Positions 14,482-32,012 of a stretch of DNA of 36,216 bases are shown here, in pieces; positions within the stretch are counted from its first letter, which is position 1, and every line of letters begins with the position of its first letter. The position numbers were made by a program, and so were the translations under genes. The notes beneath the pieces were generated by a model. It was not told the DNA's origin, did not search any database, and saw only the letters and a program-made list of their open reading frames with translations. The DNA comes from Phormidesmis priestleyi Ana (GTDB lineage: Bacteria > Cyanobacteriota > Cyanobacteriia > Phormidesmidales > Phormidesmidaceae). The stretch covers positions 1 to 36,216 of the forward strand of contig LJZR01000038.1 of assembly GCA_001314865.1 (NCBI GenBank), in the 5' to 3' direction.

Positions 14482-14553
14482 TGGGGTGTCGCCAAGTGGT
14501 AAGGCAGCGGGTTTTGGTCTCGCCATTCCTAGGTTCGAATCCTAGCACCCCAG
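14482..14553 (+). tRNA. trnQ: tRNA-Gln (anticodon TTG)
   Basis: The acceptor arms TGGGGTG (14482-14488) and CACCCCA (14546-14552) pair fully, with discriminator G at 14553. The anticodon stem GCGGG/CTCGC closes the loop TTTTGGT, with anticodon TTG at 14514-14516. The T-arm contains GGTTCGAATCC. CCA is not encoded. Confidence 0.97.
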
Positions 14554-14625
14554 CTTTTAAACGCAACTTTTCCATTGACATTACCAGCGAAAGGTCACCA
14601 AGCCTACTCGCTAAATATTGCTAAT

Positions 14626-14665
14626 AAAAGCAGTCAAGCTCATAGAGCGTGGCTGCTTTTGTTTT
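14626..14665 (+). terminator. Hairpin terminator after tRNA-Gln
   Basis: AAAAGCAG (14626-14633) pairs with CTGCTTTT (14653-14660), followed by GTTTT. The 8-bp stem with a 19-nt loop and T-rich tail lies 73 nt downstream of the tRNA. Confidence 0.5.
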
Positions 14666-15552
14666 GAATATCTGTTCTAGAAAACTGTTCTAGAAAATTG
14701 TTGTAGACAAGCGTGCCTATGAGCTGCGTCAGACTCTCAGTAAGATGGGTTTTGCAACGTAACATTTCATACGGTCACATGGCTTGACATTTTGTTAAAT
14801 TTCTCTTGTTTATGAGTGAAAAAAATGATTTTGGCCTTAACTATACCGCCAAGAGGCTGATTCATTTATCTCACTCATATGAATTTCATGAAATGGCAAA
14901 GAACGGTTTCGAAGCGTTGATGCTGCTCATCTAGACAATGGCGAGATGATGGCGAGATGATGGCGAGATGATGGCGAGATGATGACTAGACAAGGGCTAG
15001 ATAAGGGCTGACAGCGGCTGATAACACAGACTTGATCCTCGGCTTGCACAGCGTGCAACAAGCAGAAGCGACCACAAAACTTAATCCTTGCTTTACAAGA
15101 CTAATGCTCGTCTGAACAGATTAGGTTGATGCCTGAACTGCTTTTATATCAAGGCTTATATCCGTTGAGCCAAGCTTTGTCATCCATGAATTTAACCAAT
15201 GAATTTATTAGCTGTCTTGGAACTTCCCTAAAAATAGGGACGTCTTCCTATGTGTATTGGCAAAACAATTTTATGCAGTGCTCGATATTGGTTTTCTAAA
15301 TTTGTTTTTTGACCACCCTGTCTTCTTCTCTATATGTAAATACTCATTAAAAGCGCTATGTAGAGTATCAAATATGACATATAGGTGGTCGTTGCCTAGC
15401 TGAGTGAGTATTTTGTCTAACTCTAGGCGAGTTATTGGAAACGCAAGGCGAGTTATTGAAAACACGACTACTCCAGTGCTTCTCAACTGTCGTTTTTATG
15501 CCTTTAGCGCTGTCTGACTTTTTTGTTTTCCGAAGGTTGCTACTTGCACAAT
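14666..15552. other. Long gene-poor region between tRNA-Gln and the glycosyltransferase gene
   Basis: About 890 bp hold no gene I can support. The region contains a TTGACA (14784-14789), complementary 9-mers TATGAGTGA (14811-14819) and TCACTCATA (14871-14879), a four-copy 11-bp array (14938-14981), and a duplicated GGCGAGTTATTG segment near 15425-15458. A 71-codon minus-strand frame at 15271-15486 has no family features. A small RNA is possible but unproven. Confidence 0.5.
14938..14981. repeat. Tandem repeat 4 x 11 bp
   Basis: Four perfect copies of ATGGCGAGATG start at 14938, 14949, 14960 and 14971. They lie in the gene-poor region and are not attached to any gene end. Confidence 0.95.
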
Positions 15553-21453: not shown

Positions 21454-22062
21454 ATGGTTAAATTCTCTGATTTGATGGCGGCAGGTAGTCTCGCGATAAT
21501 GACGAGTCTGATATTTCCCTCCGTCGTATCAGCAGAACCTTTGCAAGCGGTCCCTGTGGCCCAAGGAACGACCGTCTCTGCAGACATTGCTAGCTTTATG
21601 TCGAACTACGCGCCGACAGAATGTACTGTTCAGTTCGGCTATGTCGAGAGCGGCGATTTCCGACGACGACTCGCCCAAAATTTTACGCGAACGATGGATT
21701 CTTTGATGGTGAGCCAGCCTGCAAATGCTTGCGAGGCTGTGACAGGGACAGACAATGGCAGAACCCGAAACTTTAACTTTATTCGCGCTGATCACGGTGT
21801 GTACAAAGTGATTACCCGCAGTGACTACAGCTACGATGAAGTGAATACTCTTTACGAGTATGAAGTGCTTGGCATTCGGTTTATTCCGATTAATGCTGAG
21901 GGCGAGTTAGATCCCGAAAATGCGAGAACGCTTTTATCTTTAGGTCAGGGAACCTGCGAAATTGATGATCCTGAAGACCCTTTTGATGTTTTTTGTGAAT
22001 TTGCCACGATCACTTCAGACGAGCGCGAATTAGCCGTTGGGCAGCTGAGCTATTTTTACTAA
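21454..22062 (+). CDS. Secreted hypothetical protein, 202 aa
   Basis: I do not recognise a family. The first 28 residues look like a Sec signal peptide (VKFSDLMAAGSLAIMTSLIF, then VVSAEP). The mature part has four cysteines (in ECTVQFGYV, NACEAVTG, GTCEIDD, VFCEFAT), which could form two disulfides in the periplasm. The remainder is acidic and probably beta-rich. It stands alone, converges on ahcY and is closed by a strong bidirectional terminator. Codon use fits the neighbours. Confidence 0.8.
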   Translation: MVKFSDLMAAGSLAIMTSLIFPSVVSAEPLQAVPVAQGTTVSADIASFMSNYAPTECTVQFGYVESGDFRRRLAQNFTRTMDSLMVSQPANACEAVTGTDNGRTRNFNFIRADHGVYKVITRSDYSYDEVNTLYEYEVLGIRFIPINAEGELDPENARTLLSLGQGTCEIDDPEDPFDVFCEFATITSDERELAVGQLSYFY

Positions 22063-22084
22063 TACAGCCTTCAAGAAAGCCAGC

Positions 22085-22124
22085 AAAAAAGCCGAGGGCA
22101 TATAGAAATGCCTTCGGCTTTTTT
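22085..22124. terminator. Strong bidirectional terminator
   Basis: A 17-bp stem pairs 22085-22101 (AAAAAAGCCGAGGGCAT) with 22108-22124 (ATGCCTTCGGCTTTTTT), with one G-U pair and a 6-nt loop. It has T-runs on both strands and sits between the convergent secreted-protein gene and ahcY, so it can end both. Confidence 0.93.
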
Positions 22125-22157
22125 GTCAGCTAGCGACTCAGGTTACAAGGACTGTGC

Positions 22158-23582
22158 TTAGTACTTGTAAGTCTCGTTCTTAAACGGCCCTTGAACGGGG
22201 ACGTGAATGTATTCTGCTTGCTCCTTGGTGAGTTCGGTAATCACTCCGTTGAAGCCTTCGACCATGTAGCGAGCGACTTCTTCGTCGAGTTGCTTAGGCA
22301 GTACCTCAACGGTGATAGCGGCTGCTTTTTGGTCGGTGGGGAGGTCGGCAAATTTTTTCTCATACAGGAAGATTTGTGCTAACACCTGGTTAGCAAAAGA
22401 ACCGTCCATAATGCGGGAAGGATGGCCTGTTGCGTTACCGAGATTCACTAAGCGACCTTCGGAGAGCAGAATCAAGAAGTCCTTAGGATCGTCAGAGCGG
22501 TAGACCTGGTGAACCTGGGGCTTCACTTCTTCCCAACGCCATGTTTTGCGCATGAAGGCGGTATCAATTTCGTTGTCAAAGTGGCCGATGTTACAGACAA
22601 CTGCGCCTGGTTTGAGATTGGCCAGAATGTTTTTGTCGCAAACGTTGTAGTTACCTGTGGCGGTGACGACCAAGTCAGTTTTGGACAGTAGGTCTAGATC
22701 GAGGCTGTCTACGGTGCCATCGTTTTTTCCGTTTTTGTAGGGTGAAACGACTTCAAAGCCGTCCATGCAAGCCTGCATTGCGCAGATAGGATCTACTTCT
22801 GCGACCTTGACGATCATGCCTTCTTGACGAAGGGAGGCCACAGAGCCTTTGCCCACGTCGCCATAGCCAATGACCAATGCCTTTTTACCTGAGAGCAGGT
22901 GGTCGGTGCCGCGCTTGATGGCGTCGTTAAGGCTGTGGCGACAGCCGTACTTGTTATCGTTTTTGGTTTTTGTAACGGCGTCGTTAACGTTGATGGCGGG
23001 AATTTTTAGCTCGCCTTTTTCTAGCATTTCAAACAGGCGGTGAACGCCTGTGGTGGTCTCTTCGGTAACGCCGTGGATGCGTTCCAGCATTTGAGGATAT
23101 TTTTGGTGAATGTGGCCGGTGAGGTCGCCGCCATCGTCCAAAATCATGTTGGCGTCCCACAGTTCGCCGCTTTCACTACCACCGGGGCTGTAGCAGGTTT
23201 GCTCTAGGCACCAGATGTACTCTTCTTCGGTTTCGCCTTTCCAAGCAAATACGGGGATGCCTGCGGCGGCGATCGCAGCGGCTGCGTGATCTTGGGTGGA
23301 GAAAATGTTGCAAGAAGACCAGCGCACTTCGGCGCCTAGCTCACACAGGGTTTCGATCAAAACCGCTGTTTGAATGGTCATGTGAATGCAGCCGATGATC
23401 TTGGCGTTGGACAGGGGCTTGCTGTCGCGGTACTTGTTGCGGATAGCCATGAGAGCAGGCATTTCGCCCTCAGCGATCGCAATTTCCTTACGGCCCCAGT
23501 CAGCCAAGGCGATATCAGCGACTTTGTAATCTAAATTGCGCTTAGGCGCGGTATCAGGGATTCGAGTGCCGGTTGCAATCAT
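22158..23582 (-). CDS. ahcY: Adenosylhomocysteinase
   Basis: AhcY hydrolyses S-adenosylhomocysteine to adenosine and homocysteine, relieving product inhibition of methyltransferases. The 474-residue protein carries the full pattern: [20 protein letters not shown], the substrate-binding [37 protein letters not shown] with the catalytic Lys/Asp region, and the NAD-binding [11 protein letters not shown] (GYGDVGKG at 239-246). It ends in the conserved YKY that reaches the partner subunit's NAD site. The length matches the longer bacterial form. No S-adenosylhomocysteine riboswitch was recognised upstream. Confidence 0.98.
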
Positions 23583-25862: not shown

Positions 25863-25951
25863 CTACTTTGAATGAACAAGTCTAAATGAACAAGGAATGC
25901 TGATGAGATAGCTTGCCCAAAAAGTGTCTATTGGTATGCGAGTGGCCCTAG

Positions 25952-25995
25952 AAAGTGAATCCAAAAGTGAATCCAAAGTGAATCCAAAGTGAACC
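25952..25995. repeat. Tandem repeat 4 x 11 bp
   Basis: AAAGTGAATCC occurs at 25952, 25964 (after one extra A) and 25975, and as AAAGTGAACC at 25986. It lies between the divergent propeller and rbcL promoters and is not at a gene end. Confidence 0.9.
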
Positions 25996-26073
25996 GCTAA
26001 AAGGGTAGTAAAAACCAGCAGTGCCTGTTTGCAGCGATTGGCCTAAAAAATTATGGTTGTTTTAACATTTTTC

Positions 26074-26091
26074 TTTACGTAATGTTACAGG
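26074..26091 (+). promoter_or_regulatory. HLR1-like direct repeat upstream of rbcL
   Basis: TTTACGTA and GTTACAGG are separated by 2 nt, the HLR1 arrangement bound by RpaB; they match the octamer consensus 7 of 8 and 6 of 8. AATATT at 26108-26113 could be a -10 with TTACAG as -35 (17-bp spacing), giving a leader of about 380 nt. Confidence 0.45.
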
Positions 26092-26339
26092 TGATACTGC
26101 GCTTCTCAATATTGCGAAAATGCCTGAAACCTTTCTACATCAGCATTCATAATAATTAATTATCACAGGATACAGAACTTCTAAAAGGAAACTTATCGAA
26201 GGGCTGGTAGTATTCTGTAGAGCATAGGTTTATTTGAGCAGCACTCAAACCTCATGGCGCGGTCGATTCATAGCACTTTAAGGGTGGTTTCACACAACCG
26301 ATTCCTGGCAGATTGCAAAAAGGCTACTGGACCACGCTA

Positions 26340-26450
26340 TGAACTCCAAGCAAATTAAAAATCGTCTGAAGTGTTCGCTGATACAGAAGTGTCAGTATTG
26401 AAATACTCGGACGTTGGGTGCGGGTTTTTTAATAAAAACCATGGAGTTCA
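26340..26450 (+). promoter_or_regulatory. Candidate structured RNA element in the rbcL leader (three-way junction)
   Basis: Four helices can be drawn without conflict. P1 pairs TGAACTCCA (26340-26348) with TGGAGTTCA (26442-26450). P2 pairs CGTCTGA (26363-26369) with TCGGACG (26407-26413), one G-U. P3 is CTGATAC/GTGTCAG closing an AGAA loop (26378-26395). P4 is GGTTTTT/AAAAACC closing TAAT (26423-26440). P1 encloses two branches, P2-P3 and P4, and ends 48 nt before the ATG of rbcL. It matches no riboswitch class I know. The fold was drawn by eye. Confidence 0.4.
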
Positions 26451-26498
26451 ATCAATATCTCGTTCGATTCATAGGAAATAGACAGGAAATAGGGAAAT

Positions 26499-27929
26499 AT
26501 GTCCTACTCACAGACGCAAGCAAAGTCTGGTGCTGGTTACAGCGCTGGTGTTCAGGATTACCGGCTGACTTACTACGCCCCGGATTACACGCCCAGAGAT
26601 ACCGATATTTTGGCTGCTTTCCGGATGACGCCTCAACCCGGCGTGCCTCCTGAAGAGTGCGCAGCAGCTGTGGCCGCAGAATCTTCTACTGGTACTTGGA
26701 CTACCGTGTGGACTGACCTGTTGACCGATATGGATCGCTACAGAGGTCGTTGCTACGACATTGAGCCCGTTCCCGGTGAAGATAATCAGTACATCGCTTA
26801 CGTGGCTTACCCCCTCGACTTATTTGAAGAAGGCTCGGTTACTAACCTCCTCACTTCTATTGTCGGTAACGTATTTGGCTTTAAAGCCTTGCGTGCGCTT
26901 CGTTTAGAAGATCTGCGGATTCCGGTCGCTTACCTAAAGACTTTCCAAGGGCCTCCTCACGGAATTCAGGTTGAGCGCGATCGCATGAACAAGTACGGTC
27001 GTCCTATGCTCGGCTGTACGATTAAGCCCAAGCTAGGCCTATCTGCTAAGAACTACGGTCGTGCGGTTTATGAGTGTCTGCGAGGCGGTCTCGACTTTAC
27101 CAAAGACGACGAGAACATCAACTCACAGCCTTTCCAAAGATGGCGTGACCGTTTCTTGTTCGTTGCTGACGCTATTCATAAGTCTCAAGCAGAAACAGGG
27201 GAACTCAAAGGGCATTACCTCAACGTAACCGCTCATACCTGCGAAGAAATGCTCAAGCGGGCCGAGTACGCCAAAGAACTCGAAATGCCCATCATCATGC
27301 ATGACTTCTTGACTGCTGGCTTCACTGCCAACACCACTTTGTCACACTGGTGCCGCGACAACGGCCTGCTGCTGCACATTCACCGCGCCATGCACGCCGT
27401 ACTCGACCGTCAAAAGAACCATGGTATCCACTTCCGCGTACTGGCTAAGTGCTTGCGCATGTCCGGCGGTGACCACATTCACACCGGTACAGTTGTAGGT
27501 AAGCTCGAAGGCGACAGAGCTGCGACTCTGGGCTTCGTTGATCTCCTCCGCGAAAACTACATTGAGCAAGACAAGTCTCGCGGTGTGTACTTCACTCAAG
27601 ATTGGGCTTCTATGCCAGGTGTGATGGCCGTTGCTTCTGGCGGTATTCACGTATGGCACATGCCTGCACTAGTAGAAATCTTCGGCGATGACTCCGTGCT
27701 GCAGTTTGGTGGCGGTACGTTGGGCCACCCTTGGGGCAATGCGCCAGGTGCAACCGCAAACCGCGTTGCGCTTGAAGCTTGCGTTCAGGCTCGTAACGAA
27801 GGCCGTAACCTCGCTCGTGAAGGTGGCGACATTCTTCGTGAGGCCGGTAAGTGGTCTCCTGAGCTTGCTGCTGCGCTTGATCTTTGGAAAGAGATCAAGT
27901 TTGAGTTCGACACTGTTGACACTATCTAG
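26499..27929 (+). CDS. rbcL: RubisCO large subunit, Form IB
   Basis: RbcL fixes CO2 onto ribulose-1,5-bisphosphate inside carboxysomes. The 476-residue protein is complete, with the N-terminal [15 protein letters not shown], the carbamylated lysine in [14 protein letters not shown] (Lys202), active-site TIKPKLG (Lys176, Lys178), loop 6 GKLEGDR and the C-terminal tail EFDTVDTI. It is the Form IB type expected with RbcX and a beta-carboxysome. The ATG at 26499 is preceded by AATAGGGAAAT. The stop codon is inside a 15-bp tandem repeat that provides a second in-frame TAG. rbcX follows by 127 nt on the same strand. Confidence 0.99.
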
Positions 27930-28056: not shown

Positions 28057-28524
28057 ATGGATCTCAAGCGAATTGCCAAAGATACGGCTCAGGTACTCAC
28101 GAGTTACCTTACCTATCAATCTGTTCGCACTGTGCTAGACCAGCTTAAAGAAACCAATCTGCCTCGCTACTACTCGTTCCGAGAGTTTTCGAGTCGTGAA
28201 AGGCTGCAAGATGGCGAAGCATTCATTCGGGATCTGTTTCAAGCAGAGCCTGAACTGGCACTGAGAATAATGACAGTCAGACAGCATCTAGCCGAAGAGA
28301 TTACTGAATTTCTGCCTGAGATGGTGTCTGCCAATATTCAACAGTCCAACATGGAGCATCGTAAGAAACATCTAGAGCGCATGACGCAAATGACCTCGGA
28401 AGATCTTGCCGCTAGCGTCGATAGAGGCAGCGACTGGATCAGCGAGTTAGAGGATGCCGATTCTGCTAAAAACGAGGCTGAAACTGAGGCAGACAGTTCT
28501 GATTCAACAGATTTGTCTAGTTAA
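28057..28524 (+). CDS. rbcX: RubisCO assembly chaperone RbcX
   Basis: RbcX is a small homodimeric chaperone that grips the C-terminal peptide of RbcL and stabilises RbcL dimers until L8 forms and RbcS binds. The helical core is clear: DLKRIAKDTAQVLTSYLTYQ, AVRTVLDQ-like helix, PRYYSFREFSSRERLQDGEA and FIRDLFQAEPELALRIMTVR. Typical RbcX is about 130-135 residues; this one is 155 because of an acidic Ser/Glu-rich tail (DSAKNEAETEADSSDS). It sits between rbcL and rbcS, the usual order in cyanobacteria. Confidence 0.96.
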   Translation: MDLKRIAKDTAQVLTSYLTYQSVRTVLDQLKETNLPRYYSFREFSSRERLQDGEAFIRDLFQAEPELALRIMTVRQHLAEEITEFLPEMVSANIQQSNMEHRKKHLERMTQMTSEDLAASVDRGSDWISELEDADSAKNEAETEADSSDSTDLSS

Positions 28525-28732: not shown

Positions 28733-29086
28733 ATGAAAACTCTGCCCAAAGAGCGTCGGTACGAAACTCTCTCTTATCTTCCCCCTCTTACCGATCAGCA
28801 AATTGAAAAGCAGCTCAACTATTGCCTACAAATGGGCTATATCCCTGCTGTTGAATTCAATGAGAACTCCAATCCTGAGGAGTACTATTGGACAATGTGG
28901 AAGCTGCCTTTGTTTGGTGCAACCAGCACTCGTTCGGTACTTGACGAAGTTCAAGCTTGCCGATCTGAGTATGGCAACTGCTTTATCCGCGTGGTGGGCT
29001 TTGACAATGTTAAGCAGTGCCAAGCTGTGAGCTTTATCGTTCATAAGCCCGGTAGCAACAGCAACAGCAGCGGCTACCGCTACTAA
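28733..29086 (+). CDS. rbcS: RubisCO small subunit
   Basis: RbcS caps the L8 core to form L8S8 RubisCO. The 117-residue protein shows the small-subunit pattern [20 protein letters not shown], then [31 protein letters not shown] and [11 protein letters not shown]. It ends with a short Ser/Asn-rich tail ([10 protein letters not shown]). AAGGA stands 4 nt before the ATG. It is last in rbcL-rbcX-rbcS and is closed by a strong terminator at 29142. Confidence 0.98.
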
Positions 29087-30602: not shown

Positions 30603-32012
30603 ATGACTTATTACGTTTCACCGAGCTTTTTGAATAAGCTAGCCGTCCACATTACTAAAAACTATCTTGACTTACCTCGGGTCAAGGTGCCGTTGATTTT
30701 AGGCATTCACGGTCGCAAGGGTGAAGGTAAGACTTTTCAGTGTGAGCTAGTGTTTGAGCGGATGGGCGTGGAGGTGGTGCATATCTCGGGCGGTGAGCTA
30801 GAAAGCCCAGATGCGGGTGATCCGGCAAGATTAATTCGGCTGCGATACCGAGAGGCCGCTGAACTGGTGCGGGTGCGAGGCTGTATGGCGGTGCTGATGA
30901 TCAATGACTTGGATGCAGGCGCGGGTCGTTTTGATCGGATGACGCAGTACACTGTGAATACGCAGTTAGTGAATAATACGCTGATGAACATTGCGGATAA
31001 TCCTACCAATGTTCAGTTGCCCGGTAGCTATGACGAAAAAGAGCTGCCGCGTATTCCGATTATTGCGACGGGTAACGACTTTGCGACGCTGTATGCACCG
31101 CTGATTCGCGATGGACGGATGCAGAAGTTTTATTGGGAGCCGAGTGATGAAGATCGGCTAGGTATTGTCGGTGGTATGTTTGCTGAAGATGGACTCTCCA
31201 AGGCTGCTATTGAAAAGCTGGTGAAGCATTTTGATACGCAGGCAATTGATTTTTTTGGGGCGGTGCGATCGCAAATATACGATGAACAAATCACCCAATT
31301 CATCCATTCAGTGGGTATTGAAAATATTGCTAGTCGCATTGTTAATTCACTCAAAATCCCAACTTTTGCCAAACCTGACTTTCAGTTAGAGCATCTCATT
31401 GAAGTCGGTGAATCTCTAGTCCGTGAACAAAACTACGTCCGTACAATGGGTTTGGTGAGTGAATACAACCAGGCTGTGACACCCTCGGGCGATCGCCATT
31501 CTGCCACTCCTTTATCTGCTCGCCGCTCGGATTATCATCGAGATTCTGCCCTCCTGACGCCACCCCAAACAAACCCGCTAACGCCCTATATTGCTAGTAA
31601 AAAGGGGCTAGGGAAAAGAGATGCTCAGCTTGCCAATTTAGAAACTTCTTCAGGCCGATCTTTCAAAGAGATGCTCCAAGCAAAAGTCTCTCAAGAAGAG
31701 AAAGTCTCTCAAGAAAAAAGTGTCAATCGAGAAACCCACCTGCCCATCTCAGCAGAACAGTCACTGCATGACATTCTGAGTCGGGGCCATCGGCTAGGGA
31801 TAGAGCATGTAGACAAGCGGCGATTTCGGGTGAATTCGTGGCAGAGCTACGCAACTGTTGATAGTCATGGTGATGATGGTGGGAATACCCGCGAAGCCGC
31901 CGCTGTGCTGCAAGCCTGTCTGACTGAGTTTCCAGATCACTATATTCGGTTGATTGGCATTGATCGCCAAACCAATCGGCGAATTAATGAAACAATTGTT
32001 CAGCGCCCTTAA
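30603..32012 (+). CDS. rca: RubisCO activase with C-terminal small-subunit-like domain
   Basis: Rca is the AAA+ ATPase that pulls inhibitory sugar phosphates out of RubisCO. Residues 1-290 form the AAA+ module: Walker A GRKGEGKT (37-44), Walker B AVLMINDLDAG (96-106), pore-loop and sensor region, and IIATGNDFATLYAPLIRDGR with the sensor-1 Asn and arginine finger. A flexible linker (about 291-382) contains a repeated KVSQE motif. Residues 383-469 form an SSU-like domain (DILSRGHRLGIEHVDKRRFR to IGIDRQTNRRI), which docks to RubisCO or carboxysome scaffolds. The 469 residues match the cyanobacterial SSUL-Rca class. It lies about 1.5 kb downstream of rbcS on the same strand. Confidence 0.95.
   Translation: MTYYVSPSFLNKLAVHITKNYLDLPRVKVPLILGIHGRKGEGKTFQCELVFERMGVEVVHISGGELESPDAGDPARLIRLRYREAAELVRVRGCMAVLMINDLDAGAGRFDRMTQYTVNTQLVNNTLMNIADNPTNVQLPGSYDEKELPRIPIIATGNDFATLYAPLIRDGRMQKFYWEPSDEDRLGIVGGMFAEDGLSKAAIEKLVKHFDTQAIDFFGAVRSQIYDEQITQFIHSVGIENIASRIVNSLKIPTFAKPDFQLEHLIEVGESLVREQNYVRTMGLVSEYNQAVTPSGDRHSATPLSARRSDYHRDSALLTPPQTNPLTPYIASKKGLGKRDAQLANLETSSGRSFKEMLQAKVSQEEKVSQEKSVNRETHLPISAEQSLHDILSRGHRLGIEHVDKRRFRVNSWQSYATVDSHGDDGGNTREAAAVLQACLTEFPDHYIRLIGIDRQTNRRINETIVQRP

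Follow-up and report, generated by a model that had tools for sequence, protein, structure and literature searches.

The leader of the rbcL gene of Phormidesmis priestleyi Ana carries a three-way junction of 111 nucleotides (nt; positions 26340 to 26450, forward strand) whose fold, judged from the comparison of seven leaders, has been maintained in one genus through compensatory changes, the element lying at rbcL in every case. We regard it as a new RNA of the rbcL 5' untranslated region (5' UTR), covarying, genus specific, and perhaps pseudoknotted, for which a sensor function is unsupported. The chances seem to us about even that it is a genus-specific domain acting in cis on the stability or translation of rbcL mRNA. 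Its features suggest an integral stabilising or regulatory region of the message more than they suggest a metabolite sensor of the classic type. An earlier note on this DNA had read the junction as riboswitch-like; a conserved, structured rbcL leader element with compensatory changes is the part of that reading that stands, whereas a riboswitch, if the word means an RNA that senses a ligand, is not supported. Its alternatives, a protein site or a stability element, appear to fit the evidence better. Few enzymes are as abundant as RuBisCO, and little has been described of its control after transcription in cyanobacteria in the literature that we surveyed.

The window, by which we mean the whole stretch of DNA analysed, comprises 36,216 nt (contig LJZR01000038.1 of assembly GCA_001314865.1, positions 1 to 36,216, forward strand) of a genome of 5.9 Mb. 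Its open reading frame (ORF) at 26499 to 27929 on the forward strand (476 amino acids), which we, like the earlier note, take to be rbcL, the gene of the RuBisCO large subunit, has homologues of at least 73% identity in 53 of 58 genomes. From their translations, the ORFs at 28057 to 28524, 28733 to 29086, and 30603 to 32012 presumably encode RbcX, RbcS, and a RuBisCO activase whose C-terminal portion resembles RbcS. The family sample consisted of 63 genomes, seven of them genus members; RbcL was located in 56 of the 63, and the rbcL upstream sequence was extracted for all 56 of these loci.

Four forward-strand helices form the junction: P1, the closing helix (TGAACTCCA at 26340 to 26348 with TGGAGTTCA at 26442 to 26450); P2 (CGTCTGA at 26363 to 26369 with TCGGACG at 26407 to 26413); the hairpin P3 (CTGATAC-AGAA-GTGTCAG, 26378 to 26395); and the hairpin P4 (GGTTTTT-TAAT-AAAAACC, 26423 to 26440). 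These coordinates, the total of two G-U pairs, and the gap of 48 nt that separates 26450 from the ATG (26499) had all been given in the earlier note and agree with the sequence, and the three-way junction itself is borne out by RNAfold, whose structure for 26340 to 26450 includes the same helices plus a few additional pairs. That structure has a free energy of -40.3 kcal/mol (z -6.65), and none of 200 shuffles was as stable. Because the element had been picked out of 36 kb, stability was also scored in 1952 tiles of 111 nt covering both strands of the window, with 24 shuffles each. Five of the 1952 scored below the grid tile nearest the element (26345 to 26455, z -4.75), namely those at 22053 (both strands), at 14579, at 14616, and at the first position of the window; with 24 shuffles, 26340 to 26450 itself had a z of -5.8. 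The stability of the junction is exceptional within 36 kb, yet not unique, and conservation therefore carries more weight. As for the other structured places, the stretch from 22053 to 22163, between converging ORFs, has a strong fold on either strand (z -6.93 and -6.75) and is perhaps a two-way terminator, and forward-strand positions 14579 to 14726 (z -5.87 and -4.84) lie directly downstream of a tRNA gene at 14482 to 14553.

Given the seven genus leaders and no structure, RNAalifold returned P1, P2, a P3 stem, and P4, together with some other pairs. Laid on alignment A3, which includes more downstream sequence and from which our pair counts are taken, the 25 pairs of these helices were standard pairs in 90.8% of 173 cells: 96.8% in P1, 93.9% in P2, 91.4% in P4 (whose register in A3 fits the majority and is one column off for the window), and 69.2% in P3, the weakest helix, with four pairs counted. 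Both partners had changed in 10 of the 25 pairs, and such pairs were present in all four helices (4/9 in P1, 2/7 in P2, and 3/5 in P4), the outer pair of P1 varying among UA, UG, CG, and GC. The earlier note had set compensating against breaking substitutions, and the comparison came out on the side of compensation: in a control that ignores phylogeny, 0/500 shuffles matched the paired fraction, the number of two-sided pairs, or the covariation score, while the number of pair types was reached by 5/500. When the partners were slid by 1 to 3 columns, just 33.5 to 44.2% of cells were paired. Exchange of the 3' strands of P1, P2, and P4 between the seven species, again ignoring phylogeny, gave pairing as good in 20/5040 permutations for P1, 60/5040 for P4, and 328/5040 for P2, which by itself is borderline; joint exchange of all three did so in 3/5040. 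In alignments A1 and A2 the P1 3' strands of leaders L010 and L011 are misplaced, and RNAalifold on A2 gave 25 pairs of its own, seven with two-sided change.

A signal of this kind might come from the kinship of the seven leaders and chance complementarity, with no function behind it. The sample of only seven sequences, the controls that ignore phylogeny, and the sister genera in which the fold is missing lean toward such an explanation, but two-sided changes in every helix, the far lower values of the slid controls, and the result of the joint exchange weigh against it, and we consider it very improbable. Within the genus, the z scores of the seven elements (-7.40, -3.53, -2.54, -1.52, -2.69, -2.32, and -4.37) are all negative, and the extreme stability of the window's element is untypical. 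In 7/7 minimum-energy folds the element is closed by pairing of the two P1 strands, in L012 with a shifted register and a bulge. The AGAA tetraloop to which the earlier note drew attention is not conserved across the genus. A further helix beside P1 (26254 to 26267 with 26325 to 26340) is strong in the window; its exchange test gave 1041/5040, and it is therefore not claimed.

The leader conservation that the earlier note had proposed to check was found within the genus: a covariance model of the element, R1, searched over the genomes of the family, matched 7/63 at E≤0.1, these being all seven genus members, with one match per genome, at rbcL in 7/7. In P. priestleyi Ana the place was the only one at E≤10. 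At E≤0.1 the remaining 56 genomes of the family gave no match, nor did 53 non-genus genomes at E≤1 (R1 searches over 40 genomes ran with stricter filters). A sensitive scan of 23 of the 49 non-genus family loci gave seven weak matches at E≤10, the best with an E of 0.1; every one lay on the correct strand of an rbcL leader, four comprising P1 and the downstream linker, in the genera g3 and g7, and three the linker only (20 nt). By these weak leader matches, a trace of P1 and the linker extends past the genus; the arms do not. BLAST with the leader matched 7/58 genomes, the source genome included; it missed the genus member G006, and its weakest match (G007, E 0.006) lies away from rbcL. Before the same gene in sister genera, the junction fold was absent and different folds were present: consensus folds of g13, of g3, and of a mixed set (g2, g8, g9, and g12) differ from one another, each opening with a 5' hairpin. 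The stability of whole leaders was modest (mean z, -1.36 for 53 family leaders; -2.82 to +0.67 for genus members). A P1 common to the family was considered and rejected; an exploratory best-duplex search, run with no control, gave GAAC/GTTC in several leaders of g3 and g7 and in single-genus leaders, a GTTC-like motif was missing from its place in 10/56 leaders, and even in L012 the aligned P1 escaped the search.

This distribution bears on two rival explanations. A riboswitch, whose pseudoknotted junction would bind a metabolite of the Calvin cycle or of photorespiration and alter rbcL translation or decay, would suit the compact junction, the candidate pseudoknot, and the conserved junction bases. 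Related genera share the gene and the metabolites, so the bases of a ligand pocket would be expected to be kept, and the model finds no sign of them: among the 63 family genomes it matches nothing outside the genus at E≤0.1. A core conserved across many lineages, as a riboswitch would be expected to have, did not emerge from the search of the family, in which matches at E≤0.1 came from 7/63 genomes, all of one genus. Orphan riboswitch candidates are structured 5'-UTR elements, as is the 5' stabiliser of chloroplast rbcL; no Rfam family matched the leader, the window, or 20 related loci at the gathering threshold. Together with the different folds of sister genera and the failure to find a terminator-like site or ribosome-site sequestration by the element (below), this makes a riboswitch improbable, and that reading in the earlier note is not supported. 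A protein-binding site, at which the rbcL message would be repressed or stabilised by RbcL, by an assembly factor (RbcX, for example), or by some other RNA-binding protein, has a model in the ribosomal proteins that act on their own leaders. The single copy per genome, at rbcL only, and the conserved junction strand and linker favour it, but RbcL is at least 95% identical within the genus (full-length matches) and more than 90% identical in most of the family, where the fold is not retained; we hold such a site to be possible, if on the unlikely side.

Downstream of P1, an AU-rich linker (CAATATCTCGTTCGATTC, 26453 to 26470, forward strand) leads to the ribosome site and is strongly conserved in the seven species; part of it matches the rbcL leaders of g3 and g7. 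In 7/7 genus members the ribosome site AGGA is predicted with high probability to pair with TCCT of codons 2 and 3 (26484 to 26505 in the window). The junction element does not hold the ribosome site, the predicted partner of the site being codons 2 and 3 rather than any part of the element. Sequestration of the ribosome site by P4 was considered and rejected (weak complementarity, 0.786 of cells), as was an attenuator, no terminator-like site being found in 25900 to 26600. The linker, or the junction strand J2/4, could instead be the seed of a target for a trans-acting or antisense RNA, presented by the fold. Conservation of the linker and its partial sharing with g3 and g7 are compatible with this, and an antisense RNA, RblR, is reported to act on rbcL in Synechocystis (PMC5306279). 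The arms covary, however, which a seed alone would not require, and we give an RNA target little credence.

Upstream, comparison across the family points to a promoter block. The palindrome ATAA-N7-TTAT at 26149 to 26163 (forward strand; LTTR-like, T-N11-A) occurs in strict form in 45/56 family loci and as ATAR-N7-TTAT in 53/56, and TATTCT at 26211 to 26216 (forward strand) belongs to a pattern, G[AG]TA[GA]TAT[TG]CT, present in 53/56 family leaders, the remaining three being off by one base; the -10-like box lies 186 to 318 nt upstream of the ATG. From the spacing, we take the palindrome to be a candidate site for RbcR, an LTTR, and TATTCT to be a candidate -10 box. The position of this conserved block leads us to predict that transcription begins near 26222, in which case the junction element would be transcribed as part of the rbcL mRNA. 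The earlier note had made its reading depend on a start not lying downstream of 26340; the predicted start lies upstream of that position.

The 5' end of the leader carries P0, a hairpin predicted at 26227 to 26251 on the forward strand (GGTTT/AAACC, extended in the window by TTTGAG/CTCAAA). A local hairpin around its motif is predicted in 6/7 genus members, L148 being the exception, and the whole-leader minimum-energy folds of the other genus members mostly omit it. By eye, L010, L012, and L148 have two tandem copies of a unit like AGGTTTATCTG at the 5' end of the leader, and the window (26226 to 26251) and L011 have one. A leader peptide was rejected: a 34-codon frame opens at ATG 26254, and the aligned codon varies between the seven species (by eye, ATG in 2/7, TTG in 2/7, and TCG in 3/7), so the start is unconserved.

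J2/4, the junction strand at 26414 to 26421 (TTGGGTGC, forward strand), in which GGTG is invariant in 7/7 genus species, is complementary to the strand at 26241 to 26248 (GCACTCAA, forward strand) near the leader 5' end. Since this pairing crosses P1, it would constitute a true pseudoknot, if formed, and we think it somewhat probable. Over nine columns, 57/63 cells pair in the seven species, with GGCACCCAA/TTGGGTGTC and AAACACC/GGTGTTT among the strand pairs of other species. The score of 0.946 among 12,564 pairs of eight-column windows is level with that of shifted P1, and P1 itself alone is higher; J2/4 against the linker reaches 0.929 of cells, G-U pairs included. Column shuffles, which do not preserve neighbouring bases, reached 0.946 in 8/2000 trials (J2/4 against the upstream sequence) and 25/1000 (all against all). 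Exchange tests over the seven species were not significant (792/5040 and 400/5040). Other 16-mers complement the 5' region equally well or better in the window (13/138), L012 (11/154), and L014 (1/174), and in the other four species none does. The 5' motif lies in or at a local hairpin in 6/7 species, not in L148, and in the window five of its nine bases fall inside the P0 stem. Among 24 leaders of other genera, the best loop complements share no common place. A lineage-specific sensor RNA, in which the 5' strand docks into the junction in one metabolic state only, would link the synthesis of RuBisCO, at a post-transcriptional step, to a signal from the Calvin cycle or photorespiration; we think it quite unlikely.

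We favour instead a 5'-UTR domain acting in cis. The 111-nt element would be the core of a 5' UTR of about 275 nt, transcription from about 26222 placing the junction within the mRNA, with P1 closing it and P2/P3 and P4 as its arms. Pairing of J2/4 with the leader 5' strand, a less strongly supported step, would give a pseudoknotted domain whose end lies 48 nt upstream of the start codon. The domain may be a fixed architectural feature of the message that hinders ribonucleases from entering on the 5' side; a barrier to 5'-end-dependent decay would be expected to take the form of a stable junction close to that end. Downstream, the AU-rich linker and the ribosome site would be kept open, for the ribosome or RNase E, and barrier and open stretch together would set the lifetime and translation of the mRNA. 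A protein might tune it, as might RNA decay that differs between light and dark, whereas tuning by a small ligand is improbable. The covariation-backed domain supplies precise bases for mutation.

A survey of the literature by title and abstract opening, with most subscription journals outside its scope, returned no rbcL leader fold like this one. Anabaena 7120 likewise has a long rbcL 5' UTR, with a 5' end at -414 that may, it was suggested, reflect processing or secondary structure, but the part of the report available describes no fold in that leader (PMC3141674), and our consensus fold of 27 Nostocales leaders, taken over their final 140 nt, keeps only three pairs. Cluster 87 of Axmann and others (2005) is likewise a computed structure signal before rbcLS, with a conserved promoter there; it differs in coming from marine picocyanobacteria, and any relation to the present fold would be putative (PMC1242208). 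The Synechocystis psbA2 leader is comparable in that the 5' UTR of a photosynthesis mRNA, together with RNase E, controls that mRNA in cis, although, as told in PMC5306279, its AU box is shielded by an antisense RNA and no junction fold is involved. Further related literature includes PMC12014562 and PMC6091082.

The near-constant promoter block, set against leader folds that change from genus to genus, raises the question of whether rbcL needs a structured leader of any shape. As a separate observation, all seven g3 leaders (L018, L026, L027, L136, L138, L139, and L144) share a long near-identical stretch, ATAAGGAGAACAGTCAATTTGGCTGTC..GCAGT..TTGCTGCTCGA, which carries two small hairpins in 7/7, while the rest of the leader varies.
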